Part shown: positions 5,005 to 16,134 of the stretch, in pieces
Position numbering within the stretch: position 1 is the stretch's first letter
How the letters are laid out: the number at the start of each line of letters is the position of its first letter
Source: a virus
Direction: 5' to 3' (one strand)
DNA: 21,664 nucleotides
IMG/VR virus record: IMGVR_UViG_3300032217_001310
Coordinates: 1 to 21,664 of that record
Translations under genes and position numbers: made by a program
The notes under the pieces: model-generated
Database searches by the model: none
What the model was told of the DNA's origin: nothing
What the model saw: only the letters and a program-made list of their open reading frames with translations

Positions 5005-7035
5005 ATGTCAGATACTTTTTCTTTTAGTTTATCAGATGAGTTTGTAAATAAATATAGCACAATTCCAGCACCATTTGGTTTTTCCGATGCAGGATCAAAC
5101 TCACTTGGAGAGATTACCTTTATTAGAACATATTCCAGAATGAAGGAAAATGGAACAAAAGAAAGATGGCATGAGGTTTGCAAGCGTGTAATTGAGGGTA
5201 TGTACTCAGTTCAAAAAAACCATGCTAAAGAAAATAGACTGCCATGGAATGATAATAAAGCCCAGAAGTCTGCACAAGAAGCCTTTCAAAGAATGTTTGA
5301 ATTAAAGTGGACACCACCAGGTCGTGGCCTTTGGGCATTTGGTACACCTATGACTATGGAAAAACGTAACTCTGCATCTCTTCAAAATTGTGCTATGGTT
5401 TCAACTCGTGATATTGATAGAAATGATCCAGGTGCCCTTTTTGCTTGGGTAATGGATGCATTAATGCTGGGTATTGGGGTTGGATTTGATACCCTTGGTC
5501 AAGATAAGGAAATGCCTATTTATGGCCCTACAGAGCCTTCAGTGACCTATGAAATACCTGATACTCGTGAGGGTTGGGTAGAGTCTGTAAGATATTTAAT
5601 AAACTCTTATTTACGTCAAAATCAAGCAATTCAAGAGTTTGATTATTCTTTAATTAGACCACTTGGTTCTCCTATTAAGGGGTTTGGTGGGGTGGCAAGC
5701 GGACCTCAGCCATTAATGGATTTACATAATAGAATCCGTAAAGTAATTGGATCTAGAGTTGGAGAAAAGTTAGACTCTCGTGCAATTGTAGATATTGTTA
5801 ATTTAATTGGAACTTGTGTTGTATCTGGAAATGTTCGTAGATCTGCAACGCTTGCTCTTGGAACACCAGAAGATCAAGGTTTTATTAATCTTAAAAATCC
5901 AGAAGTATTTCCAGAACGAAATTCCTACGATTCAGAAAATCCAGGATGGGCATGGATGAGTAATAATTCTATTGCTGCTGAAGTTGGTACAAAATATGAA
6001 GACTATGTTGATTTAATCGCAGATAATGGAGAGCCAGGATTTATTTGGTTAGATGTTGCAAGAAATTTTGGTCGTCTTGCAGATCCTGCAGATGGAAAAG
6101 ATTATCGTGTAATGGGATTTAATCCTTGTGCAGAACAACCACTTGAATCATATGAGTTGTGTACTCTTGTAGAAGTTCACCTTAATCGACATGAAGATAA
6201 AGAAGACTTTATCCGCACATTAAAATTTGCATATCTTTATGGAAAAACTGTAACGCTTATGCCAACACATTGGCAAAACACAAATGGAATTATGCAACGC
6301 AATCGTCGAATTGGAACATCTCTGACAGGTATTGCATCTTTTGCAGATACTAAGGGCATGCCTGCAGTGCGTGATTGGATGGATTCTGGATACAATAAAA
6401 TTCGTCATTATGACAAGAAATACTCTGAATGGCTATGTGTTCGTGAATCAATTCGTGTAACAACAGTTAAACCATCAGGCTCTGTTTCACTCCTATCTGG
6501 TGCAACTCCAGGAGTTCACTGGGGACCAGGTGGTGAGTTCTATCTTCGTGCTATTCGTTTTGGAAATACTGATCCAATGATGCATTTATTTAAAGCAGCG
6601 GGATATAAAATTGAACTAGACTTAGTATCAGCAAATACATCTGTAGTATATTTTCCAGTAGCATCAGGACATCCACGCTCTGAAAAAGATGTAAGTTTGT
6701 TTGAAAAGATTGGACTTGCAGCAACTGCTCAAAAATATTGGTCTGACAATGGCGTATCTGTAACACTATCATTTGATAAAGAAACAGAAACTAAACATAT
6801 TGCTCCAGCACTTCATCTTTATGAGGGAGAACTTAAAGCGGTTTCATTTTTGCCGATGGGTAATAAAACATACCCACAACAGCCATATACTCAAATAACA
6901 AGAGAAGAATATAACTCTTATGTAGGTACAATTGGTAAAATTGATTGGTCTGCTATTTATGATGGAGTAGAAAATCTTGAAGCACAAGGTGAGGCATACT
7001 GCTCAACCGATGCTTGCGAGATTAAGTTATATTAA
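5005..7035 (+). CDS. nrdJ: Adenosylcobalamin-dependent ribonucleoside-triphosphate reductase (class II)
   Basis: A 676-residue enzyme that reduces ribonucleotides to deoxyribonucleotides using a radical generated from coenzyme B12, feeding phage DNA synthesis in the cytoplasm. All hallmark residues of the monomeric Lactobacillus leichmannii-type enzyme can be placed: LQNC at C129 and C386 in YELC (the redox pair), C375 and E377 in NPCAEQ (thiyl radical site and general acid/base), and the C-terminal CSTDAC at C666/C671 (the thioredoxin-linked pair). The 11-residue spacing from C375 to C386 equals that in the family. VKPSGSVSLLSGATPG (about 488-503) fits the conserved phosphate-binding loop. 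It is shorter than the ~739-residue L. leichmannii enzyme, mostly between the first Cys and NPCAEQ. AAAGG at 4989-4993 may serve ATG 5005. The gene is isolated among structural genes. Confidence 0.93.
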   Translation: MSDTFSFSLSDEFVNKYSTIPAPFGFSDAGSNSLGEITFIRTYSRMKENGTKERWHEVCKRVIEGMYSVQKNHAKENRLPWNDNKAQKSAQEAFQRMFELKWTPPGRGLWAFGTPMTMEKRNSASLQNCAMVSTRDIDRNDPGALFAWVMDALMLGIGVGFDTLGQDKEMPIYGPTEPSVTYEIPDTREGWVESVRYLINSYLRQNQAIQEFDYSLIRPLGSPIKGFGGVASGPQPLMDLHNRIRKVIGSRVGEKLDSRAIVDIVNLIGTCVVSGNVRRSATLALGTPEDQGFINLKNPEVFPERNSYDSENPGWAWMSNNSIAAEVGTKYEDYVDLIADNGEPGFIWLDVARNFGRLADPADGKDYRVMGFNPCAEQPLESYELCTLVEVHLNRHEDKEDFIRTLKFAYLYGKTVTLMPTHWQNTNGIMQRNRRIGTSLTGIASFADTKGMPAVRDWMDSGYNKIRHYDKKYSEWLCVRESIRVTTVKPSGSVSLLSGATPGVHWGPGGEFYLRAIRFGNTDPMMHLFKAAGYKIELDLVSANTSVVYFPVASGHPRSEKDVSLFEKIGLAATAQKYWSDNGVSVTLSFDKETETKHIAPALHLYEGELKAVSFLPMGNKTYPQQPYTQITREEYNSYVGTIGKIDWSAIYDGVENLEAQGEAYCSTDACEIKLY

Positions 7036-7044
7036 TTTTTAGCC

Positions 7045-7061: not shown

Positions 7062-10000
7062 ATGTCAACTCCATCCAACTCATACGCAGAAAAAGTATAT
7101 GCAGAGCACCCACTTGCACTTTGGGCTTTGGATGATTCTGCTGACTACATAAGTTTGATTACTGAAGAACAAAGAGATATTGGTACGCTTTGGAATGGAA
7201 CTGGTGGTAGTTCTCTTCCAGCAATTACTGATTCTGCTGCTCCTTTTCAAAATAGCATAGTAACTGGATTGATATCTGACGTTCCAGCAACATCTGGTTT
7301 ATATTTATATGCCTTTAGTCCAAATTTAGCAAACTTTTCTGATTTGAATATGTCACTTGGAACTATAGCACTTTCTACTTATTTTTATTCAGATAGTGTT
7401 TATTTAGAAGAAATTCAAATTGGTTATGAATATATTGATCCAGTTACATCTGAAATTATTCAAAACACAAAATCATTCAATACTTCAATTTATCAACAAT
7501 GGTCTTTTATTTCTAATACTTTTGAACTTTTAAATATAGATGTAGAATTTAAAATGATAATAAAATTAAAATTTTATCCAGGTGGTGGAACTCCCGACGA
7601 CTATAAAGTTTACTTTAATGGAATGACTGTTGGACAATGGTCAGAAGAGTTTAACTCAGTTTCTTTAGGAGTACAAACTACAACATTACCAACAGACATA
7701 GCCTTACCAACATCTGATGTAATTGAAGCAAAAGAATATCAACTAGCAACAGATAATGCATATTATTTTGTTTCTAATAATTCTATTCTTGGAAGAAATT
7801 CTGGCATACCATTAGTTTATGGCGCTTCAAACATTACCAAATTATTACCAAATGAAAATTTGCCATCTGTTATTTTTCCTGGAAAAGGATTTTTAAATAA
7901 AGCAGGACAGTATAACGATTACACTGTTGAATTTTGGATGAAAGTAAGTTGTAATACCATAGATCCAGTGAGGATCTTTGGTCCAATAGCGTCAAATGAT
8001 GGAATTTATGTAGAGTCTGGATTTTTAACTTTAGTCGTAGGTGAAAGATTTAAATCACACTTTGTAGCAGAGTGGTCTAGACCAATGCTTGTTAATATTA
8101 GATTAATTAAAAATTCTATATCTGTATTGCTTAATGGAGAAGAAGTAATTTCTTTTTTAATTGATACTGCTAGCCTTCAATTGCCTGATATATTAAATGC
8201 AGAAGGAAAAAGCCAAGACTGGCTAGGTTTTTATTCAACAACAGATACAACACCATTTGAAATTGATTGTGTTTCTATTTATTCATACAATGTTCCAATT
8301 CCAGTTGCAAAACGTAGATGGGCATATGGACAGGCAGTAACTTCATCAGAAAAAATAGATTCATCATATAACGGATCATCAACATATATTGATTATCCTT
8401 TTTCAAATTATGTTGCAAACTATACATACCCAGATATGGCAAAATGGGAACAAGGCAATTTTGATAATCTTACTACTAATCTTTCATCATTAAGTAATTC
8501 ACAATACAGATTGCCAGAAATATTTATTGATACAAAAAATAAACAACAACTATATAATGATTGTAAAGAATTGCAAACAGAACAAGATAAATTTATTACG
8601 TTTAGGCCAAATGAAACATGGAATGATGTAAATTGTTATTTTAACTTTCCTAAATTTAATATTTTAAATGATGAGGTTCATTCATTTTTTGGTGTTTTTC
8701 AAATTGATGAAAATGATGTATCACAACAAATACTTATAAAAGTTTATAATACATTAACTGGAAATTTTTTTACTATTAAAAAAGATGGAAATGAAATTCA
8801 TTACTACTTAACATACAATGGCAGTGAGGAAGAAATATATACTAGTAATCCTTTTGTAGTTGGAGAAAAGTTTGTTGTTGGAATAAATATTAAATTATTA
8901 TCTGAATCTTTTGGTGAAAACATAACTTCATTTTTTGGAAATAGAAATGGTTTAAAAATGTATGTTGGTGGAGATGAAAGTGGAACTCAAACATTTACTG
9001 GAAAAATTTATAAATTTGGACAATGTACATCATTTAATACATCTATGATGAATATGCATTATTTAGATAATGGAATAGCAATGCTAGAAATGTCAGAAGA
9101 ATTTATACTACATTTAGCAAGTTATTCCATTTTTCCTGAAGTAGAATATGGACAATATTATTTAGATATTGAGACTTATGGTAGATGGGAAGATTATCTA
9201 CCTCTTTCATACTTTGCAAAAAATGTTAAAAATGATGTTGGCAATGAATATTATTCTTTAGACTTTTTACAATTCAATATTGGATTTCCTTCATCCGCAA
9301 AAACAGTAATAGATGGTCAAAATGAAGTTTTAGATACTATTAATTCAGAAGTTAGATCTTTTATTACATTTCAGTATATTGAAAATGGATCAAACTTGTT
9401 AGATGAAAATTTTACAACAACTGTTTTAGCAGACAAAAATAAAGTAGTTTATGTAGATAACTATACTGGTTGGGAAACAACTAAGTTTGAGGTTGTTGAT
9501 AATACAATTATATATCCGCCAAAATCTATTGATTTTAATAAATTAGCAATTGTTTATAGTGTAGAGTTTAAAAATAAAGGAACAACAACAAAACAAATTA
9601 ATTTAAGAAAATTAGAAATTTCTTCACAGGCATTAAATAATAATTCTTTTAATCCTATTGGAACTAGATTTGGAATTAATATTTTTCCATACAAAAAAAG
9701 TGGATTATATTATGATTACAAAAACAATAACCCAGTAAGCATTTATAAAAAAAGCACACCATATTTATATTTAACTAAAAATTCTGGAATAGAGTTAAAA
9801 CCTGTAAATGATATAAAACTAGAACGAGGAATAGCAATTCCAGTAAATTCAGAAAATGCTGCAAGTTATAAAATTAATGCAGTGCAACTTTGGCTTATGT
9901 ATGACTATGAAACTTTTTCAGATGTTCCAAAACAACTATTTAAAATACAATACAAAAATGATACTATTATTTTTTATATAGTAGCAAACAGTTTGCAAAA

Positions 10001-10532: not shown

Positions 10533-10928
10533 ATGAATCCTTTAATTAATCAAAAAACTGGTAAACCTATTGTTGGAAATGTACGAAGAAGAGTTATTGA
10601 AAAAAACTATGACTGGGGCTTGTATGTCTGGAAAAAATCAAACGGTAAATGGTTTACCGATGGTGAAGGAAATGTATTAAATATAGAATCAAAAAAAGAT
10701 GACCAAGAGCAACTTAAAAAAATTAAAGAGGCAGCAATTTATTATGGTGATGATGGTACGGGACATGCCGTTTTTGTTCCAGGATTAACAAGAATATCAG
10801 ATGAAGAACATTCAGAACAAAAAGATAGAATGCTTCAAGGGTTAATTCCATCAAGAAACGACTTGGGTGCTTGGAAAGCAGCACAAGATACACTTGATAA
10901 GCATGGAAGGGATGTCTTTGATGCCTAA
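10533..10928 (+). CDS. Conserved-looking hypothetical protein upstream of portal
   Basis: A 131-residue protein that I do not recognise. It is hydrophilic, with a compact N-terminal part rich in aromatic residues (YDWGLYVWKKSNGKWF at about 27-42), a middle charged helix (DDQEQLKKIKEAAIYYGDD) and a C-terminal segment (DRMLQGLIPSRNDLGAWKAAQD). No membrane segment or signal peptide is visible. I chose ATG 10533 over the in-frame GTG 10527 because the extended -10 at 10517-10525 predicts transcription starting at about 10532-10533, and the GTG would then lie upstream of or at the very start of the transcript. The 3' end overlaps the portal start by 8 bases, which suggests translational coupling. 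Its position fits a virion or DNA-packaging accessory protein, but no function can be assigned. Confidence 0.6.
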   Translation: MNPLINQKTGKPIVGNVRRRVIEKNYDWGLYVWKKSNGKWFTDGEGNVLNIESKKDDQEQLKKIKEAAIYYGDDGTGHAVFVPGLTRISDEEHSEQKDRMLQGLIPSRNDLGAWKAAQDTLDKHGRDVFDA

Positions 10929-12567
10929 TGATGAGAGTTATGAATATATTTCCGCTTCCTTAAATAGCGAAGATCGTGAAACAAATAAATTTGAATCCCA
11001 TGATGTTTTTAATAAATCTTGGGAAGAGTTAAAAAATTTAGGTGGATTAGATAATAACTTTAAACGTCGTGCAGCCAGGGTATCAAAAGCAATTGGTCCA
11101 AATGATCCACAGTATATGTCTATTCAAAATGTTGATCAAAATAGCCTAGCATACTTAGACTCTGCTAATGCAGATGCCATGGGAATAAATGGTGCTGGAT
11201 CTAAAACAATTAATCCTGGAACTGTTTATAGAAATGGTTATGGAATTTTTGATGTTATTACACCGCCATATAATCTTTATGAGTTAGCAAATTTTTATGA
11301 TACATCTTTTGCAAACCATGCAGCAATTGATGCGAAAGTAGAAAATGTTGTTGGACTTGGTTATTTCTTTGATGTAACAGATAGAACAAAATTAAGGTTT
11401 GAAACAGCAGAAGATCCAGGCTCAGTAGATCGTGCTCGTAAAAGAATTGAACGTGCAAAAATTGAATTGCGTGACTGGATAGAATCACTTAATGATGATG
11501 ACAGTTTTACAAAGACAATGGAAAAAGTTTATACAGATGTTCAAGCAACTGGTAATGGATATATTGAAATTGGCAGAACTACTGGCGGAGAAATTGGTTA
11601 TGTAGGACACGTACCATCTACAACAATGAGAGTTCGCAGATTGCGTGATGGATATGTACAGGTAATTGGTCCAAAAGTTGTATACTTTAGAAATTTTGCA
11701 GCAAATAATAAAAATCCACTTACAGATGATCAACGTCCAAATGAGATCATTCATATTAAAGAGTATTCTCCATTAAATACTTTTTATGGAGTTCCAGATA
11801 TTGTTGCAGCATTACCATCATTAATTGGTGATCAACATGCATCTCAATACAATATTGATTATTTCCAAAACAAGGCTGTACCAAGATATATAATTACACT
11901 TAAGGGTGCAAAACTTTCTGCAGATGCAGAAGATAAGATGTTTAGATTCCTTCAGACTGGACTAAAGTCTCAGTCCCATAGAACTCTTTATATTCCACTT
12001 CCTGGAGATCAAGACCATACTAAGGTTGAGTTTGATATGAAGGCTATTGAAAATGGAATTCAAGAAGGATCATTTAAAGAATACCGTAAGCAAAATCGTG
12101 ACGATATCTTAATTGCTCATCAAGTTCCTATTTCAAAACTTGGTGGATCAGAGTCTGGCCTTGCTTCAGCACTTGCTCAAGATAGAACATTTAAAGAGCA
12201 AGTTTCAAGACCAGCACAAACACATCTTGAAAAAATTATCAATAAAATTATTAGAGAAAAAACAGATATTTTAGAGTTTAGATTTAATGAACTTACCCTT
12301 ACAGATGAAATTGCACAATCTCAAATTCTTGAAAGATACGTTAAGAATCAAATTATGCTTCCTAATGAAGCACGTGAAATTCTTGATTTGCCACAAGCAC
12401 AACATGGAGATAGTCCATTGCAACTAACTGCCAGAGCAGCAGCAGATGCTAATGCCAATTCTGCGGGTAACAGGGCAAGGGATGCACAAAGAACAAATAC
12501 TCAATCTGATGGTACAGCCACCGTATCTGGAAGAAATCCAAAGGGCGAAGGTAGAGCGTCTCAATAG
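10921..12567 (+). CDS. Portal protein
   Basis: A 548-residue portal protein, the dodecameric ring at one capsid vertex through which DNA enters and leaves. The middle of the protein has the family's layout: LYELANFYDTSFANHAAIDA (around 117-136), a stem/wing region with TDVQATGNGYIEIGR, NEIIHIKEYSPLNTFYGVPD, then an N-to-K-rich clip region and the LGGSESGLASALAQDRTF segment before the crown helices. This matches the HK97/PBSX-type portal family. The C-terminal ~50 residues are disordered (Ala, Asn, Gly and Arg-rich). The start is ATG 10921: GGAAGGG at 10905-10911 is 9 bases upstream. In-frame alternatives at 10867 (GTG), 10903 and 10912 have no comparable ribosome site. No terminase gene is adjacent. 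Confidence 0.88.
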   Translation: MPNDESYEYISASLNSEDRETNKFESHDVFNKSWEELKNLGGLDNNFKRRAARVSKAIGPNDPQYMSIQNVDQNSLAYLDSANADAMGINGAGSKTINPGTVYRNGYGIFDVITPPYNLYELANFYDTSFANHAAIDAKVENVVGLGYFFDVTDRTKLRFETAEDPGSVDRARKRIERAKIELRDWIESLNDDDSFTKTMEKVYTDVQATGNGYIEIGRTTGGEIGYVGHVPSTTMRVRRLRDGYVQVIGPKVVYFRNFAANNKNPLTDDQRPNEIIHIKEYSPLNTFYGVPDIVAALPSLIGDQHASQYNIDYFQNKAVPRYIITLKGAKLSADAEDKMFRFLQTGLKSQSHRTLYIPLPGDQDHTKVEFDMKAIENGIQEGSFKEYRKQNRDDILIAHQVPISKLGGSESGLASALAQDRTFKEQVSRPAQTHLEKIINKIIREKTDILEFRFNELTLTDEIAQSQILERYVKNQIMLPNEAREILDLPQAQHGDSPLQLTARAAADANANSAGNRARDAQRTNTQSDGTATVSGRNPKGEGRASQ

Positions 12568-12589
12568 TTGAGAAAACTCTATAAACAAA

Positions 12590-12598
12590 TGCTATAAT
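12590..12598 (+). promoter_or_regulatory. Extended -10 promoter TGCTATAAT before the protease gene
   Basis: TG, C, then perfect TATAAT at 12593-12598, 9 bases before ATG 12608. TTGAGA at 12568-12573 could be a weak -35 with a long 19-base spacer. No Shine-Dalgarno precedes the ATG, so the mRNA would be leaderless or carry a 1-3 base leader. It is the nearest clear promoter upstream of the capsid gene. Confidence 0.68.
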
Positions 12599-12607
12599 AG
12601 ATTCACC

Positions 12608-13882
12608 ATGTTTATAAATAAGGCTAATTTGACGACTGAAGGCAATAACGTTACAATATCCATGCCAATTGGCAAAGTCGATATTGAGCGTAGAATGGTC
12701 TCTGGTTTTGCTACACTAGATAATATTGACAAGCAAGATGATATTGTAGACACAGGTGCAAGCCTAGAAGCATTTAAGAATTTCCGTGGAAATCTAAGAG
12801 AAATGCACCAAGCAAATGCTGTTGGAAGAATTGTTTCTTTTAAAGAAGATAAGTATTTTGATCCAAATTCAAAAAAGTTTTATAGTGGAGTTTATGTATC
12901 TGCCTATGTTTCAAAGGGTGCACAAGATACTTGGGAAAAAGTTATTGATGGAACTCTAACTGGATTTTCTATTGGTGGAAGCATTAATAAAACTGAAGAT
13001 GCATATAACGCAGAACTAGATAAGTCAATTAGAATTATTAAAGAATATCAACTACATGAACTTTCACTTGTTGACAATCCAGCAAATCAATTTGCAAATA
13101 TTGTTTCAATTGAAAAAGTAAATGGAAAAAATGAAATTAGTGGTTATTTATCAAAAGCAGAAATTAATAATGTTTTTTGGTGTAATTCAGACGATATCGT
13201 TCAGGTTTCTGAGAAAATAAATAATGAATGTCCATCATGCACAAAAACAATGGAAAATATTGGTTTTGTTGAAAAGAATGATACAGACAATATAGACACA
13301 ATAAAGTTCTTAGTTGATAGTGCTAAAGGCATTAATACTTCTAAGATTACAAAGGAGGCAAACCAAATGACAGATGAAACAACAACAGTTGTTGAAAATG
13401 TTGAGGTCGCTCCAGAGGCAGATGCTACTACAGTTGAAAAGAATGACGCTTCAGTTGAAGCAACTGCTGTAGAGGTTGTTCCAGTTGAGGGTGATGTTAC
13501 TATTGCAGCAGAAGTTACAATAGAATCACCAGCACAAGCAGAAGCAACTGCAGAGGTATCAAAGTCAGATGAGACAGTCGTTTCGGCAGTTTCTGAAATT
13601 AAAGAGACTTTGACATCAGCCTTTAGCGATCTTGCAACAACAGTGAAATCTCTTCACGAACAAGTTGCAGAACTAAGTAAGTCAATTAACAGCGTTTCAA
13701 ATGAGGTCAGCGCAGTTAAGAATCAATATGATGAGTTTGGCAAGCGAGTAGATGCTGTAGAGCAAGACACCGCTTTCCGCAAGTCTGGCGATCTAGGCGA
13801 GATCGTGCAGTTTGAACCCTCAAAAGTTCAGAAATCCCTATGGGGCGGACGTTTCCTCAAAACAACCGACCTATTCAACTAA
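12608..13882 (+). CDS. Prohead serine protease fused to scaffold domain
   Basis: A 424-residue protein. Residues 1-170 look like a XkdF/S78-type prohead protease. H67 in REMHQANAVG and S121 in LTGFSIGG are the likely catalytic His and Ser, and E151 or D156 in LHELSLVDNPAN is the likely acidic residue. This enzyme would cut the capsid arm and scaffold during head maturation. Residues 186-223 hold a partial zinc-ribbon-like patch (C192, C208, C211 in CPSC). From M254 the character changes to an acidic, Ala/Val/Glu-rich segment, then a probable coiled coil (about 331-386) and a basic C-terminal segment ending LWGGRFLKTTDLFN, as expected for a scaffold. The start ATG 12608 lies 9 bases from a -10 box with no ribosome site. 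The 3' half appears to be translated separately as well (see 13367-13882). Confidence 0.8.
   Translation: MFINKANLTTEGNNVTISMPIGKVDIERRMVSGFATLDNIDKQDDIVDTGASLEAFKNFRGNLREMHQANAVGRIVSFKEDKYFDPNSKKFYSGVYVSAYVSKGAQDTWEKVIDGTLTGFSIGGSINKTEDAYNAELDKSIRIIKEYQLHELSLVDNPANQFANIVSIEKVNGKNEISGYLSKAEINNVFWCNSDDIVQVSEKINNECPSCTKTMENIGFVEKNDTDNIDTIKFLVDSAKGINTSKITKEANQMTDETTTVVENVEVAPEADATTVEKNDASVEATAVEVVPVEGDVTIAAEVTIESPAQAEATAEVSKSDETVVSAVSEIKETLTSAFSDLATTVKSLHEQVAELSKSINSVSNEVSAVKNQYDEFGKRVDAVEQDTAFRKSGDLGEIVQFEPSKVQKSLWGGRFLKTTDLFN
13351..13358 (+). promoter_or_regulatory. Internal ribosome-binding site AAAGGAGG within the protease gene
   Basis: A near-perfect Shine-Dalgarno sits inside the protease reading frame, 8 bases before the in-frame ATG 13367. 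It is stronger than the site of the protease gene itself, which has none. It is the main evidence for a nested scaffold gene. Confidence 0.75.
13367..13882 (+). CDS. Nested in-frame capsid scaffold protein (internal start)
   Basis: A predicted 171-residue product starting at ATG 13367 in the same frame as the protease gene and sharing its stop. AAAGGAGG at 13351-13358 gives a strong ribosome site at ideal spacing. The product has an acidic N-terminal half (many Glu, Val and Ala), a heptad-like helix at about residues 78-133 (SEIKETLTSAFSDLATTVK onward) and a basic tail rich in Lys/Arg and aromatic residues, which is how capsid scaffolds that bind the shell through the C-terminus look. Base composition rises from about 28% GC just before this start to 42-45% just after, and above 50% near the end, as in the highly expressed capsid gene. 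The known parallel is lambda Nu3 nested in gene C. That this start is used is inference. Confidence 0.65.
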   Translation: MTDETTTVVENVEVAPEADATTVEKNDASVEATAVEVVPVEGDVTIAAEVTIESPAQAEATAEVSKSDETVVSAVSEIKETLTSAFSDLATTVKSLHEQVAELSKSINSVSNEVSAVKNQYDEFGKRVDAVEQDTAFRKSGDLGEIVQFEPSKVQKSLWGGRFLKTTDLFN

Positions 13883-13905
13883 GAAAACACTATGGAGGTG
13901 AAATA

Positions 13906-15036
13906 ATGTCGGAAATAACAAATAACGAAGTTCTAGAGAAGAACTATCCTGGTTCAGGTGGAGCAGGTAATGAATTCAATTCCCAAGGCGCAACAGCGTC
14001 AGGTGGAATTGGAGGAACATCCAACCCAGCAGCAGGAATTCTTGGTAATACACCAACAGCACTTGCTGGCGTAACATCAGGACCTAACGCAGTAAACCCA
14101 GTGGGTTCACTCGGAGGTATTCTTCTACCAGAGCAGGCTCGTCGCTTCATCGACTACGTGTGGGATGCAACAATTCTCGCTAAAGATGGTCGCAAAGTAA
14201 CAATGAGAGCCAACACCATTGAACTTGAAAAAGTCAATGTTGGTGAACGTGTAATCCGTGCAGCAGCACAGGGTTCTAACAATTATACAAATGCTGGTGC
14301 TACATTCTCAAAGGTAGAATTGACTACAAAGAAGATTCGTCTTGACTGGGAAGTATCAACAGAAGCACTTGAAGACAATATCGAAGGCGCAGTATTGGAA
14401 GATCATTTAGTTCGCTTGATGACCAATGCATTTGCAAACGATATTGAAGATCTTGCTATTAACGGCGATGGTGCAACAGGAGACTTCCTTTCAATTATGC
14501 GAGGATTTGTTGATCGTACAACCGATGCTGGTTCAGGAGCACACGAGGCAATTGTAACAGTTGCTGGAGATGCTTGGACAACTCCAGTTATGCAGGATAT
14601 CATCTTGGCTATGCCACGTAAGTATCGTGCACTTAAGTCAAACCTTAAGTTCTATGCTGGTACAGATGCCTTCCAAGGCATTGTAAAGCACAATGGTACA
14701 CTTGCTGATGCAATCGCAGAAGCATTTGCTGGTACTCCAGCAGGTACACCTGCAAACCGTCAAGCATACCTTGATGGCGTTGCACAAACATTTGGTAATG
14801 CTCGCACTACCCGTGTTCTTGGTGTAGACGTACAGGAAGTTCCTTACTACCCTGCAGGATATGTCGACTTGACATTCCCACAGAACCGTGTATGGGGATT
14901 CCAGCGTGATATCACTGTAAACCGTGAGTATCGTCCTAAGAAGGATACAATCGAATATACAGTATTCGTTCGCTTTGGCGTACAATGGGAAGAACTTGAT
15001 GCTGTTGCATACGCAGACGCAGCAAGCGATTCCTAA
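13906..15036 (+). CDS. Major capsid protein (HK97 fold)
   Basis: A 376-residue shell protein. ATG 13906 has GGAGGTG at 13894-13900; the in-frame ATG 13840, 22 codons upstream, lies inside the scaffold gene without a ribosome site. Residues 1-70 are a flexible Gly/Ala/Asn-rich arm (NYPGSGGAGNEF, then SGPNAVNPVGSLGG). The folded part begins near ILLPEQARRFIDYVW. The segment from WEVSTEALEDNIEG through AFANDIEDLAINGDG is typical of the HK97 spine-helix region, and the C-terminal part (VWGFQRDITVNREYRPKKDT, then FVRFGVQWEELDAVAY) fits the conserved beta core of that family. GC content is about 42-55% with C-ending codons, unlike neighbours at 22-35%, which fits selection for high expression. A hairpin follows the stop. 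The arm may be removed or used by the prohead protease, but no cleavage site can be proven here. Confidence 0.88.
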   Translation: MSEITNNEVLEKNYPGSGGAGNEFNSQGATASGGIGGTSNPAAGILGNTPTALAGVTSGPNAVNPVGSLGGILLPEQARRFIDYVWDATILAKDGRKVTMRANTIELEKVNVGERVIRAAAQGSNNYTNAGATFSKVELTTKKIRLDWEVSTEALEDNIEGAVLEDHLVRLMTNAFANDIEDLAINGDGATGDFLSIMRGFVDRTTDAGSGAHEAIVTVAGDAWTTPVMQDIILAMPRKYRALKSNLKFYAGTDAFQGIVKHNGTLADAIAEAFAGTPAGTPANRQAYLDGVAQTFGNARTTRVLGVDVQEVPYYPAGYVDLTFPQNRVWGFQRDITVNREYRPKKDTIEYTVFVRFGVQWEELDAVAYADAASDS

Positions 15037-15103: not shown

Positions 15104-15352
15104 ATGTCTTATCCAGGTTCAGATTCAAACAATCCAATTAATGCAGAAGGCGCATTTGCAGCAGGTGGTGTGGGTGGTGCTATTATTAGTGCTGCAGGAG
15201 GATTAACAACTGATATGGTTTTAGGACAACTTGCAGGAAATTTTACAATGGGTGATACATCTGGACCAAATGCAGTAAATCCAAGCGGAAGACCAAATGG
15301 AGTAAGGCATGCAATACAAGGTGGATTTAAAAGTCATAGTAAAAAAAGATAA
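15104..15352 (+). CDS. Small protein resembling the capsid protein's N-terminal arm
   Basis: An 82-residue protein with AAGGAG at 15093-15098 before ATG 15104. Residues 3-61 align with residues 14-67 of the capsid protein. Both begin with YPGS, continue with a GGxGG patch and AAGxL, and end with the identical SGPNAVNP followed by one residue and Gly. After this the capsid protein enters its folded shell domain, whereas this protein ends in a short basic tail (RPNGVRHAIQGGFKSHSKKR). It contains no Cys and no membrane segment. It lies directly after the capsid gene behind a terminator. It could be a minor head protein that uses the same contact site as the capsid arm, a protease substrate, or an internal DNA-contacting protein. 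All three are inference. Confidence 0.65.
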   Translation: MSYPGSDSNNPINAEGAFAAGGVGGAIISAAGGLTTDMVLGQLAGNFTMGDTSGPNAVNPSGRPNGVRHAIQGGFKSHSKKR

Positions 15353-15384: not shown

Positions 15385-15747
15385 ATGTCAGATTTTAATT
15401 TTGAAAGCAATGATCCAACACCAGTTGTTGAAGATCATGATATTAATGTAGAAGCACCTGCAGCACCAATTGCAGAGTCAGAAGTTGTTGTAGAGGCTCC
15501 AGCAGTTGAGCCAGCAGTAGAGGCTCCAGCAGTTGTAGAGTCTGCTATAGAGCATAAGGCTGAAGAAAAGCCATCAAATGACAAGACAGCAATTTTGTAT
15601 GCGATGAAAGACTTGAAAATTTTGGGTCTTGGAATTCTACAAAAAGGTTACAATGCAGTTCCAGCAGGTAAAGCAAACAAATGGCTTGAAAAAGCATCTG
15701 TGCGTTTAGCATCTGATGAAGAAATTAAAACATATCACAATAAATAA
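15385..15747 (+). CDS. Possible head decoration protein, acidic N-terminus plus shared C-terminal domain
   Basis: A 120-residue protein; ATG 15385 follows AAGGAGG at 15373-15379. Residues 1-64 are acidic, disordered and rich in Glu, Ala, Pro and Val, with repeated EAPA-type motifs (EAPAAP, VEAPAVEPAVEAPAVVE). Residues 67-120 form a compact domain that aligns without gaps to residues 64-117 of the next gene, with 19 of 54 positions identical by my count. Shared features are LxxxGxG, GYNxV, KW and SVRxAxxEE. The domain is not one I can name. Position after the capsid gene suggests a head-associated protein with a shared capsid-binding domain and a variable exposed N-terminus, which is inference. 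It has its own promoter-like site. Confidence 0.6.
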   Translation: MSDFNFESNDPTPVVEDHDINVEAPAAPIAESEVVVEAPAVEPAVEAPAVVESAIEHKAEEKPSNDKTAILYAMKDLKILGLGILQKGYNAVPAGKANKWLEKASVRLASDEEIKTYHNK

Positions 15748-15780: not shown

Positions 15781-16134
15781 ATGTCGTTTATCGATGAGTT
15801 TGGTAGTAAAACAGTTGGGGAACTTAAGACTTACGCTAAAGAAAATAAGATTGATTTATTTGGCGTCTCTAAAAAATCAGAAATATTAGAGGTTATTGCT
15901 TCATTTTTTCCAGAAGTTGGAAAAACAGAAGAACAATTAGATCAAATTAAAAAAACAAAAGAACCAGTAGAACAAGTTGCTGTTTTTTCAAAAAAGAATC
16001 TTTACTGGGGTGGTGTTGGTGCTTTGGTTCCAGGGTATAACATTGTTTCAAAAGAAATGTCTGAAAAATGGATTACACATAAATCAGTAAGAATTGCTAA
16101 ACCAGAAGAAGTGGCAACCTTTTACGGTAAATAA
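15781..16134 (+). CDS. Possible head decoration protein, SAP-like N-terminus plus shared C-terminal domain
   Basis: A 117-residue protein. I chose ATG 15781 over TTG 15769 because GGGAGG at 15771-15776 lies just upstream of the ATG, although the gap of 4 bases is short. Residues 8-42 (KTVGELKTYAKENKIDLFG, then KKSEILEVI) look like a helix-extended-helix fold of the SAP/Rho-N type, which in other proteins binds nucleic acid or partner proteins. Residues 64-117 are the same domain as the C-terminus of the preceding gene, with GYNIV, KW and SVRIAKPEE conserved. The pair is a tandem duplication with exchanged N-terminal halves. The head-decoration role is inference from position. The next gene starts two bases after its stop. 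Confidence 0.6.
   Translation: MSFIDEFGSKTVGELKTYAKENKIDLFGVSKKSEILEVIASFFPEVGKTEEQLDQIKKTKEPVEQVAVFSKKNLYWGGVGALVPGYNIVSKEMSEKWITHKSVRIAKPEEVATFYGK

Follow-up and report, generated by a model that had tools for sequence, protein, structure and literature searches.

A Conserved Internal Start in an S78-Type Phage Protease Gene Points to a Nested, In-Frame Scaffold Gene

Introduction

Phages lambda and P2 both carry protease and scaffold in a single gene (PMC8508860). In lambda, the C protein has 439 residues and the 3' part of its gene holds nu3 (201 aa), which is read in the same frame to the same stop codon; this nested pair lies just upstream of the head protein genes. The locus described here has a like arrangement and a protease of almost equal length (424 aa), with differences in detail—lambda C is an S49 peptidase whereas the protease here is of the S78/HK97 type, the start of C overlaps gene B, and in lambda gene D separates Nu3 from the capsid gene, whereas here the putative scaffold gene adjoins the capsid gene. 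The P2 gpO scaffold arises by proteolysis, not from an internal start.

S78 and herpesvirus proteases have a common fold. Herpesvirus UL26.5 forms a gene apart, transcribed into an mRNA of its own, whereas the evidence presented below favours an internal ribosome site. As in the herpesvirus UL26/UL26.5 pair, the scaffold here would be the C-terminal part of a protease-scaffold fusion; the herpesvirus scaffold is made separately and in excess, with the UL26-derived share reaching only about 10% in HSV-1 (PMC12474303). The C-terminus of the herpesvirus scaffold binds the capsid protein, and the C-terminus is also the best conserved part of the putative scaffold here.

The HK97 gp4/gp5 system is similar to our locus in its S78 protease family and in its order of portal, protease, and capsid protein genes (PMC12749128). 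In HK97 and D3, both with this type of protease, the scaffold is however the N-terminal domain (delta) of the capsid protein (PMC12749128), whereas here it appears to be joined to the protease and to have its gene nested inside that of the protease. Actinobacterial phages are known to embed one gene in frame within another and to give it a consensus ribosome-binding site—lysA of mycobacteriophage Ms6 contains lysA241 (PMC3111421)—but that gene encodes a lysis enzyme, whereas the one considered here would belong to head assembly.

Here we analyze a window of 21,664 nucleotides, the whole stretch taken from IMG/VR virus record IMGVR_UViG_3300032217_001310, in which a reading of the sequence had placed a scaffold gene inside the protease gene. 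The putative scaffold gene is missing from annotation in freshwater viral contigs and in the Stanwilliamsviridae and Rhodococcus phage records examined; the internal gene is unmarked in every annotated Streptomyces or Rhodococcus phage record that we examined. We found no description of the internal start of these phages in the literature, with most subscription journals lying outside the search. The nested gene could be a source of scaffold for phages that have an HK97-type protease but whose capsid protein lacks a delta domain, and it would be a phage counterpart of the herpesvirus protease/scaffold arrangement, built on a protease of the HK97 type. It also pairs a predicted leaderless start with a strong internal Shine-Dalgarno (SD) start in one frame, and illustrates how calling only the start of the longest open reading frame (ORF) hides in-frame nested genes.

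Layout of the Locus

The gene order is portal, protease-scaffold ORF, and major capsid protein. The features on which the argument depends are as follows:

10867-12567: portal gene (PF04860, E=1.2e-30)
12590-12598, plus strand: extended -10 promoter TGCTATAAT, predicted leaderless promoter of the protease-scaffold-capsid unit
12608-13882, plus strand: protease-scaffold ORF of 424 aa; annotations of relatives treat it as one capsid or head maturation protease
12671-13105, plus strand: S78 prohead protease domain, aa 22-166
13301-13333, plus strand: block ATAAAGTTCTTAGTTGATAGTGCTAAAGGCATT, near-invariant in the window clade, synonymous sites included
13351-13358, plus strand: internal SD AAAGGAGG, present in 141 of 141 loci
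13367-13882, plus strand: nested putative scaffold gene, encoding 171 aa in the protease frame and sharing the protease stop codon
13541-13771, plus strand: predicted coiled-coil part of the putative scaffold, aa 59-135, from sequence matches
13772-13882, plus strand: conserved C-terminal tail of the putative scaffold (AFRKSGDLG...SLWGGRFL), from cross-clade conservation
13789-13805, plus strand: hairpin or palindrome CGATCT-AGGCG-AGATCG within the coding region of the putative scaffold
13894-13901, plus strand: SD GGAGGTGA of the major capsid protein gene
13906-15036, plus strand: major capsid protein, 376 aa (TIGR01554, E=2.7e-10, exceeding the cut-off)

The ATG at 13367 lies 759 nt, or 253 codons, from the protease ATG at 12608, so that it is codon 254 of the longer frame; a spacer of 8 nt separates it from AAAGGAGG. 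The coordinates of the original prediction—SD, spacer, internal ATG, and 171-residue product—were all correct. All relatives have the nested-pair layout, that is, an ORF with the same frame and the same stop and a start signal of its own.

The Protease Domain

The ORF matches PF04586 (S78) with E=1.8e-6 and 28.6 bits against a curated cut-off of 21, and TIGR01543 with E=9.9e-7, which is under the curated cut-off of that model; PHROG 9427, 'head maturation protease', matches residues 3-421 (E=1.3e-115). His67 (12806-12808) and Ser121 (12968-12970) are invariant among 39 aligned sequences, and their invariance together with the family makes them candidate catalytic residues. On these matches we assign the protease to the S78/HK97 type. 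The analogy with lambda C/Nu3 that accompanied the original prediction thus holds for the layout and fails for the protease family, which is S78 and not S49; the locus would work like C/Nu3 without being a member of the protease family of C.

Between the protease and the putative scaffold there is a WC...CPxC motif (13181-13240; aa 192, 208, and 211), which is present in the window and in the Streptomyces and Rhodococcus phages and is lost in most close freshwater relatives. It is possibly a zinc-ribbon remnant.

Conservation of the Internal Start

The comparison covered 80 close relatives taken from viral contigs (60-68% identity), together with named phages of Streptomyces and Rhodococcus and further contigs; cellular genomes gave no confirmed match. 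They fall into five clades: the freshwater contigs (the window clade), two Streptomyces phage subfamilies, a soil clade, and the Rhodococcus phages. An internal SD followed by an in-frame start codon was found in all 141 covering loci, which represent 51 distinct contexts (119 of 119 before additions). Each covering locus has exactly one SD-preceded in-frame start codon within codons 200-300; among the other in-frame start codons of the same ORFs, just 1 of 682 is preceded by a comparable SD. Loci inside a clade are closely related and the 141 are not 141 independent tests—the agreement of five clades is the stronger fact. Loss of the start codon and its AGGAGG in relatives that keep the protein had been named at the outset as the observation that would count against an internal start; we looked for such a loss and saw none, with all 141 loci retaining both.

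What is conserved is the DNA. The window clade reads the SD as AAG GAG (Lys-Glu), the Streptomyces and Rhodococcus phages as AAA/GAA GGA GGT (Lys/Glu-Gly-Gly); because the reading phase and the encoded residues differ among clades, the SD is kept as DNA and not as peptide. For the Lys and Glu that the SD encodes, 46 of 46 window-clade representatives use AAG and GAG, whereas elsewhere AAA and GAA are equally common or commoner. The internal start codon is ATG in 103 loci and GTG in 38, and nothing else in the 141; in the ORFs with a GTG start (38 loci, 20 distinct contexts), GTG makes up 8.2% of the valine codons elsewhere. Additionally, synonymous constraint peaks near the internal start. In the window clade, the peak covers codons 234-252, where the 9-codon mean reaches 0.91 against an ORF mean of 0.41 and a 99% permutation limit of 0.86; in the Loccivirinae, codons 262-270 are among the most constrained (0.94), slightly below the 95% limit of 0.96. 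The shift in SD phase, the restriction to ATG or GTG, and the synonymous constraint argue for translation initiation rather than protein constraint.

The claim of a nested, in-frame gene with a strong internal start of its own is therefore well supported, being conserved in five clades, and this start is real, deeply conserved, and very probably functional.

GC Content and Codon Usage

The original prediction also pointed to a step in GC content as a sign of a gene boundary. The step is real: GC rises across the internal start from 0.24-0.31 to 0.42-0.43, and reaches 0.51 in codons 391-420. As boundary evidence it does not stand, being largely amino-acid composition. GC3 is flat at 13367 (0.13-0.17 in codons 271-330) and rises only in about the last 60 codons; the step at 13367 stems from codon positions 1 and 2 of a segment rich in Ala, Glu, and Val. 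Since this is an effect of amino-acid composition and not of codon usage, we do not count it as evidence for the start site.

A codon-usage plot, which had been proposed as a check, gave no step at 13367, since the data are split best at codon 377 and not at codon 254. In codon usage the scaffold part scores nearer to the capsid gene (0.15) than the protease part does (-0.14), but with the split at codon 377 we do not count this as evidence for the start either.

The Protease Start and Its Predicted Promoter

That the protease ATG has no ribosome site was noted in the original prediction, and we likewise found no SD-like match upstream; an SD-like tetramer precedes this ATG in 8 of 76 distinct upstream contexts, which is the chance rate. 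The start at 12608 is itself supported by the conserved protease N-terminus MxIxKAxW. What had been overlooked is TGCTATAAT, lying 9 nt upstream of the ATG. TANNNT occurs 5-11 nt before the protease ATG in all 76 contexts, compared with 27% of shuffles, and the extended form TGN-TANNNT in 62 of the 76, compared with 1.5% of shuffles; the spacing from -10 box to ATG is 6 nt in the Streptomyces clades and 9-10 nt in the window clade and the Rhodococcus phages.

The promoter motif TGNTATAAT recurs well beyond this gene. In 576 kb of window-clade DNA there are 134 copies on the coding strand and none on the other strand; 90 of the 134 are of the leaderless type, directly before a start codon, and 39 stand before an SD-led gene. 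The window has five sites (1481, 7045, 12590, 15359, and 20291), all on the coding strand with a gene just downstream; two are leaderless-type (genes at 7062 and 12608) and three stand ahead of SD-led genes. We take TGNTATAAT, on this strand bias and placement, to be a real phage promoter.

In Mycobacterium tuberculosis, the centres of mapped -10 boxes (TANNNT) lie 7-12 bp ahead of the transcription start, and a TGN extension accompanies higher promoter activity (PMC3898074). The spacing at our locus fits such mapped actinobacterial promoters, which puts the predicted transcript start 0-3 nt ahead of the protease ATG and makes the protease mRNA probably leaderless. The leaderless start postulated for the protease is in this way both supported and sharpened, since every clade has a -10 box 6-10 nt ahead of the ATG. 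Coupled translation could be another source of protease in some Streptomyces phages, where this ATG overlaps the stop codon upstream of it.

A further observation concerns the Loccivirinae (loci L124-L142), in which an inverted repeat GCCTTTT...AAAAGGC lies between a -35-like TTGCCT and the protease -10 box; it is possibly an operator.

The same scan at the internal start found the opposite pattern, with a -10 box in 0 of 51 contexts and an SD in 51 of 51. A rival possibility is that the putative scaffold is translated, via the same SD, mainly from an mRNA of its own made at an internal promoter, as for herpesvirus UL26.5. Such a promoter could lie in the 33-nt block upstream of the SD (13301-13333), whose synonymous sites are near-invariant in the window clade: the block starts with a -10-like TAAA(A/G)T at -65, its ATA Ile codon is invariant (46 of 46) though ATA accounts for about 16% of Ile codons, and TGATAAAAT is found in 48 of 65 distinct sequences. 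The window, however, has AATAAAGT and not TGNTATAAT; the other four clades keep the SD with no -10-like element at a fixed position, and in every clade the promoter at the protease start is by far the better one. We therefore regard this explanation as unlikely. A separate internal promoter is possible for the window clade only, judging from the block; ATAAAGTTCTTAGTTGATAGTGCTAAAGGCATT may be an mRNA element or a weak internal promoter. It also holds a weak hairpin, GUGCU-AAA-GGCAU.

The Nested Product as a Probable Scaffold

The N-terminal part of the 171-residue product is acidic and poorly conserved, with a net charge of -14 in the first 60 aa (-12 to -27 across the family). The putative coiled-coil region that follows matches only generic coiled-coil families and coiled-coil PDB chains, and a PDB sequence search with the family profile returned generic coiled-coil chains only. 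Weak matches to Cutibacterium endolysins (E about 0.03-0.1), which came from a search with the scaffold part only, were set aside as coiled-coil noise. The C-terminal tail (KSGD-G ... W-G-FL) is the best conserved segment across clades and, by analogy with known scaffolds, is likely the end that binds the capsid protein.

The capsid protein itself shows no sequence sign of an HK97-type scaffolding (delta) domain; by inspection, its N-terminal 75 aa form a Gly/Asn/Ala-rich arm with no helical or coiled-coil character. The scaffold-only search found no separate scaffold gene in related phages. The succession of acidic, coiled-coil, and conserved-tail parts, a capsid protein without a delta domain, and the lack of a separate scaffold gene all point to a scaffold—this is the best reading of the product, based on its position, its composition, and the lack of another candidate.

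The internal start might instead be used to make something else, such as a minor head protein or a protease subunit with a regulatory or competing role. The product has no structural or sequence match to a proven scaffold, and its function is deduced indirectly, which leaves some room for such a role; its place between the protease and capsid genes, its acidic, coiled-coil, and conserved-tail organization, the lack of a delta domain in the capsid protein, and lambda Nu3 as a precedent with the same layout make it a quite improbable one.

Within the scaffold coding sequence, the hairpin at 13789-13805 is present in 81 of 81 window-clade loci, with compensatory variants CGATGT/ACATCG and TGATCT/AGATCA (synonymous resampling, P about 0.015 per variant). 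The corresponding codons in the Streptomyces clades form other palindromes, GACGT/ACGTC and GACC/GGTC, which are individually not significant. An Rfam search of positions 12500-14100 found nothing.

Proposed Model of Expression and Assembly

We consider it likely that the gene works through two in-frame starts, with a leaderless protease-scaffold and an SD-made scaffold co-assembling with the capsid protein. A single transcription unit would start at 12605-12608. Leaderless initiation at the protease ATG would give the full-length S78 protease with its C-terminal scaffold domain, ribosomes that start at 13367 behind AAAGGAGG would make the 171-residue scaffold alone, and SD initiation at 13906 would make the capsid protein. 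Free scaffold and protease-scaffold would then co-assemble with the capsid protein; the common C-terminal scaffold domain would bring the protease along into the procapsid, and its expected targets there are the scaffold and the capsid arm. On mRNAs that read through from upstream promoters, the scaffold SD would still work while the protease start would have none, tipping the balance further toward free scaffold. The sequences show the signals, how they are conserved, and the pattern of promoters; from these we infer initiation at 13367, the abundance ratio, scaffold function, procapsid entry, and cleavage.

The ratio deserves separate treatment. It had been proposed that the leaderless and internal starts together yield little fusion and much free scaffold. 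Leaderless mRNAs are not generally translated less in mycobacteria, nor are they uniformly weak in actinobacteria (PMC7148126); because poor translation of such mRNAs is not reliable in actinobacteria, the argument for a low-protease, high-scaffold ratio is weak. Two initiation mechanisms on one message could be imagined as the device that sets stoichiometry: the protease-scaffold would be made only by the leaderless route, on mRNAs that start at its ATG, while scaffold and capsid protein would be made by SD on any mRNA crossing them, so that the choice of promoter and the way the host balances leaderless against SD translation would govern the ratio of protease to scaffold. We offer this as a tentative suggestion that is on the whole doubtful.

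A further explanation would leave the internal SD and ATG unused, with self-cleavage of the full-length fusion as the only source of free scaffold. Such self-processing is common among proteases of this kind, an example being herpesvirus UL26 and its R site (PMC12474303), and in the window clade the segment immediately before the internal start, IKFLVDSAKGI, shows strict conservation. Self-cleavage would nonetheless set scaffold and protease at 1:1, and it leaves unexplained both the conservation of SD and start DNA in different phases across clades and a codon restricted to ATG or GTG; we judge it very unlikely as the only route, though it may occur alongside internal initiation. Finally, the AGGAGG could appear by chance in any one sequence, but the view that it is an accident or a by-product of a conserved Lys-Glu-(Val/Ala) peptide with no translational role is hardly credible given its presence in every locus against the low background, and it is contradicted by the cross-clade comparison, in which different peptides (KE, KGG, and EGG) encode the same DNA.

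Neighboring Features

Several other features of the region were observed alongside the two-start gene. The SD of the capsid gene sits inside a short inverted repeat (13888-13901), which reads UCAC-UAGGAG-GUGA in most window-clade relatives and CAC-UAUGGAG-GUG in the window. After the capsid gene, an 82-aa ORF (15104-15352) repeats motifs of the capsid N-terminal arm (13906-14120), YPGS...GGxGG...TSGPNAVNPxG, with 45% identity over 66 aa (E=0.037, single comparison); this is perhaps a shared cleavage or targeting motif. The adjacent small ORFs at 15385-15747 and 15784-16134 have a common C-terminal domain (38% identity over 50 aa), and the first of them has an acidic N-terminal part rich in Ala, Pro, and Val. 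A gene for a B12-dependent ribonucleotide reductase lies among the structural genes at 5005-7038 (TIGR02505, E=6.8e-104).
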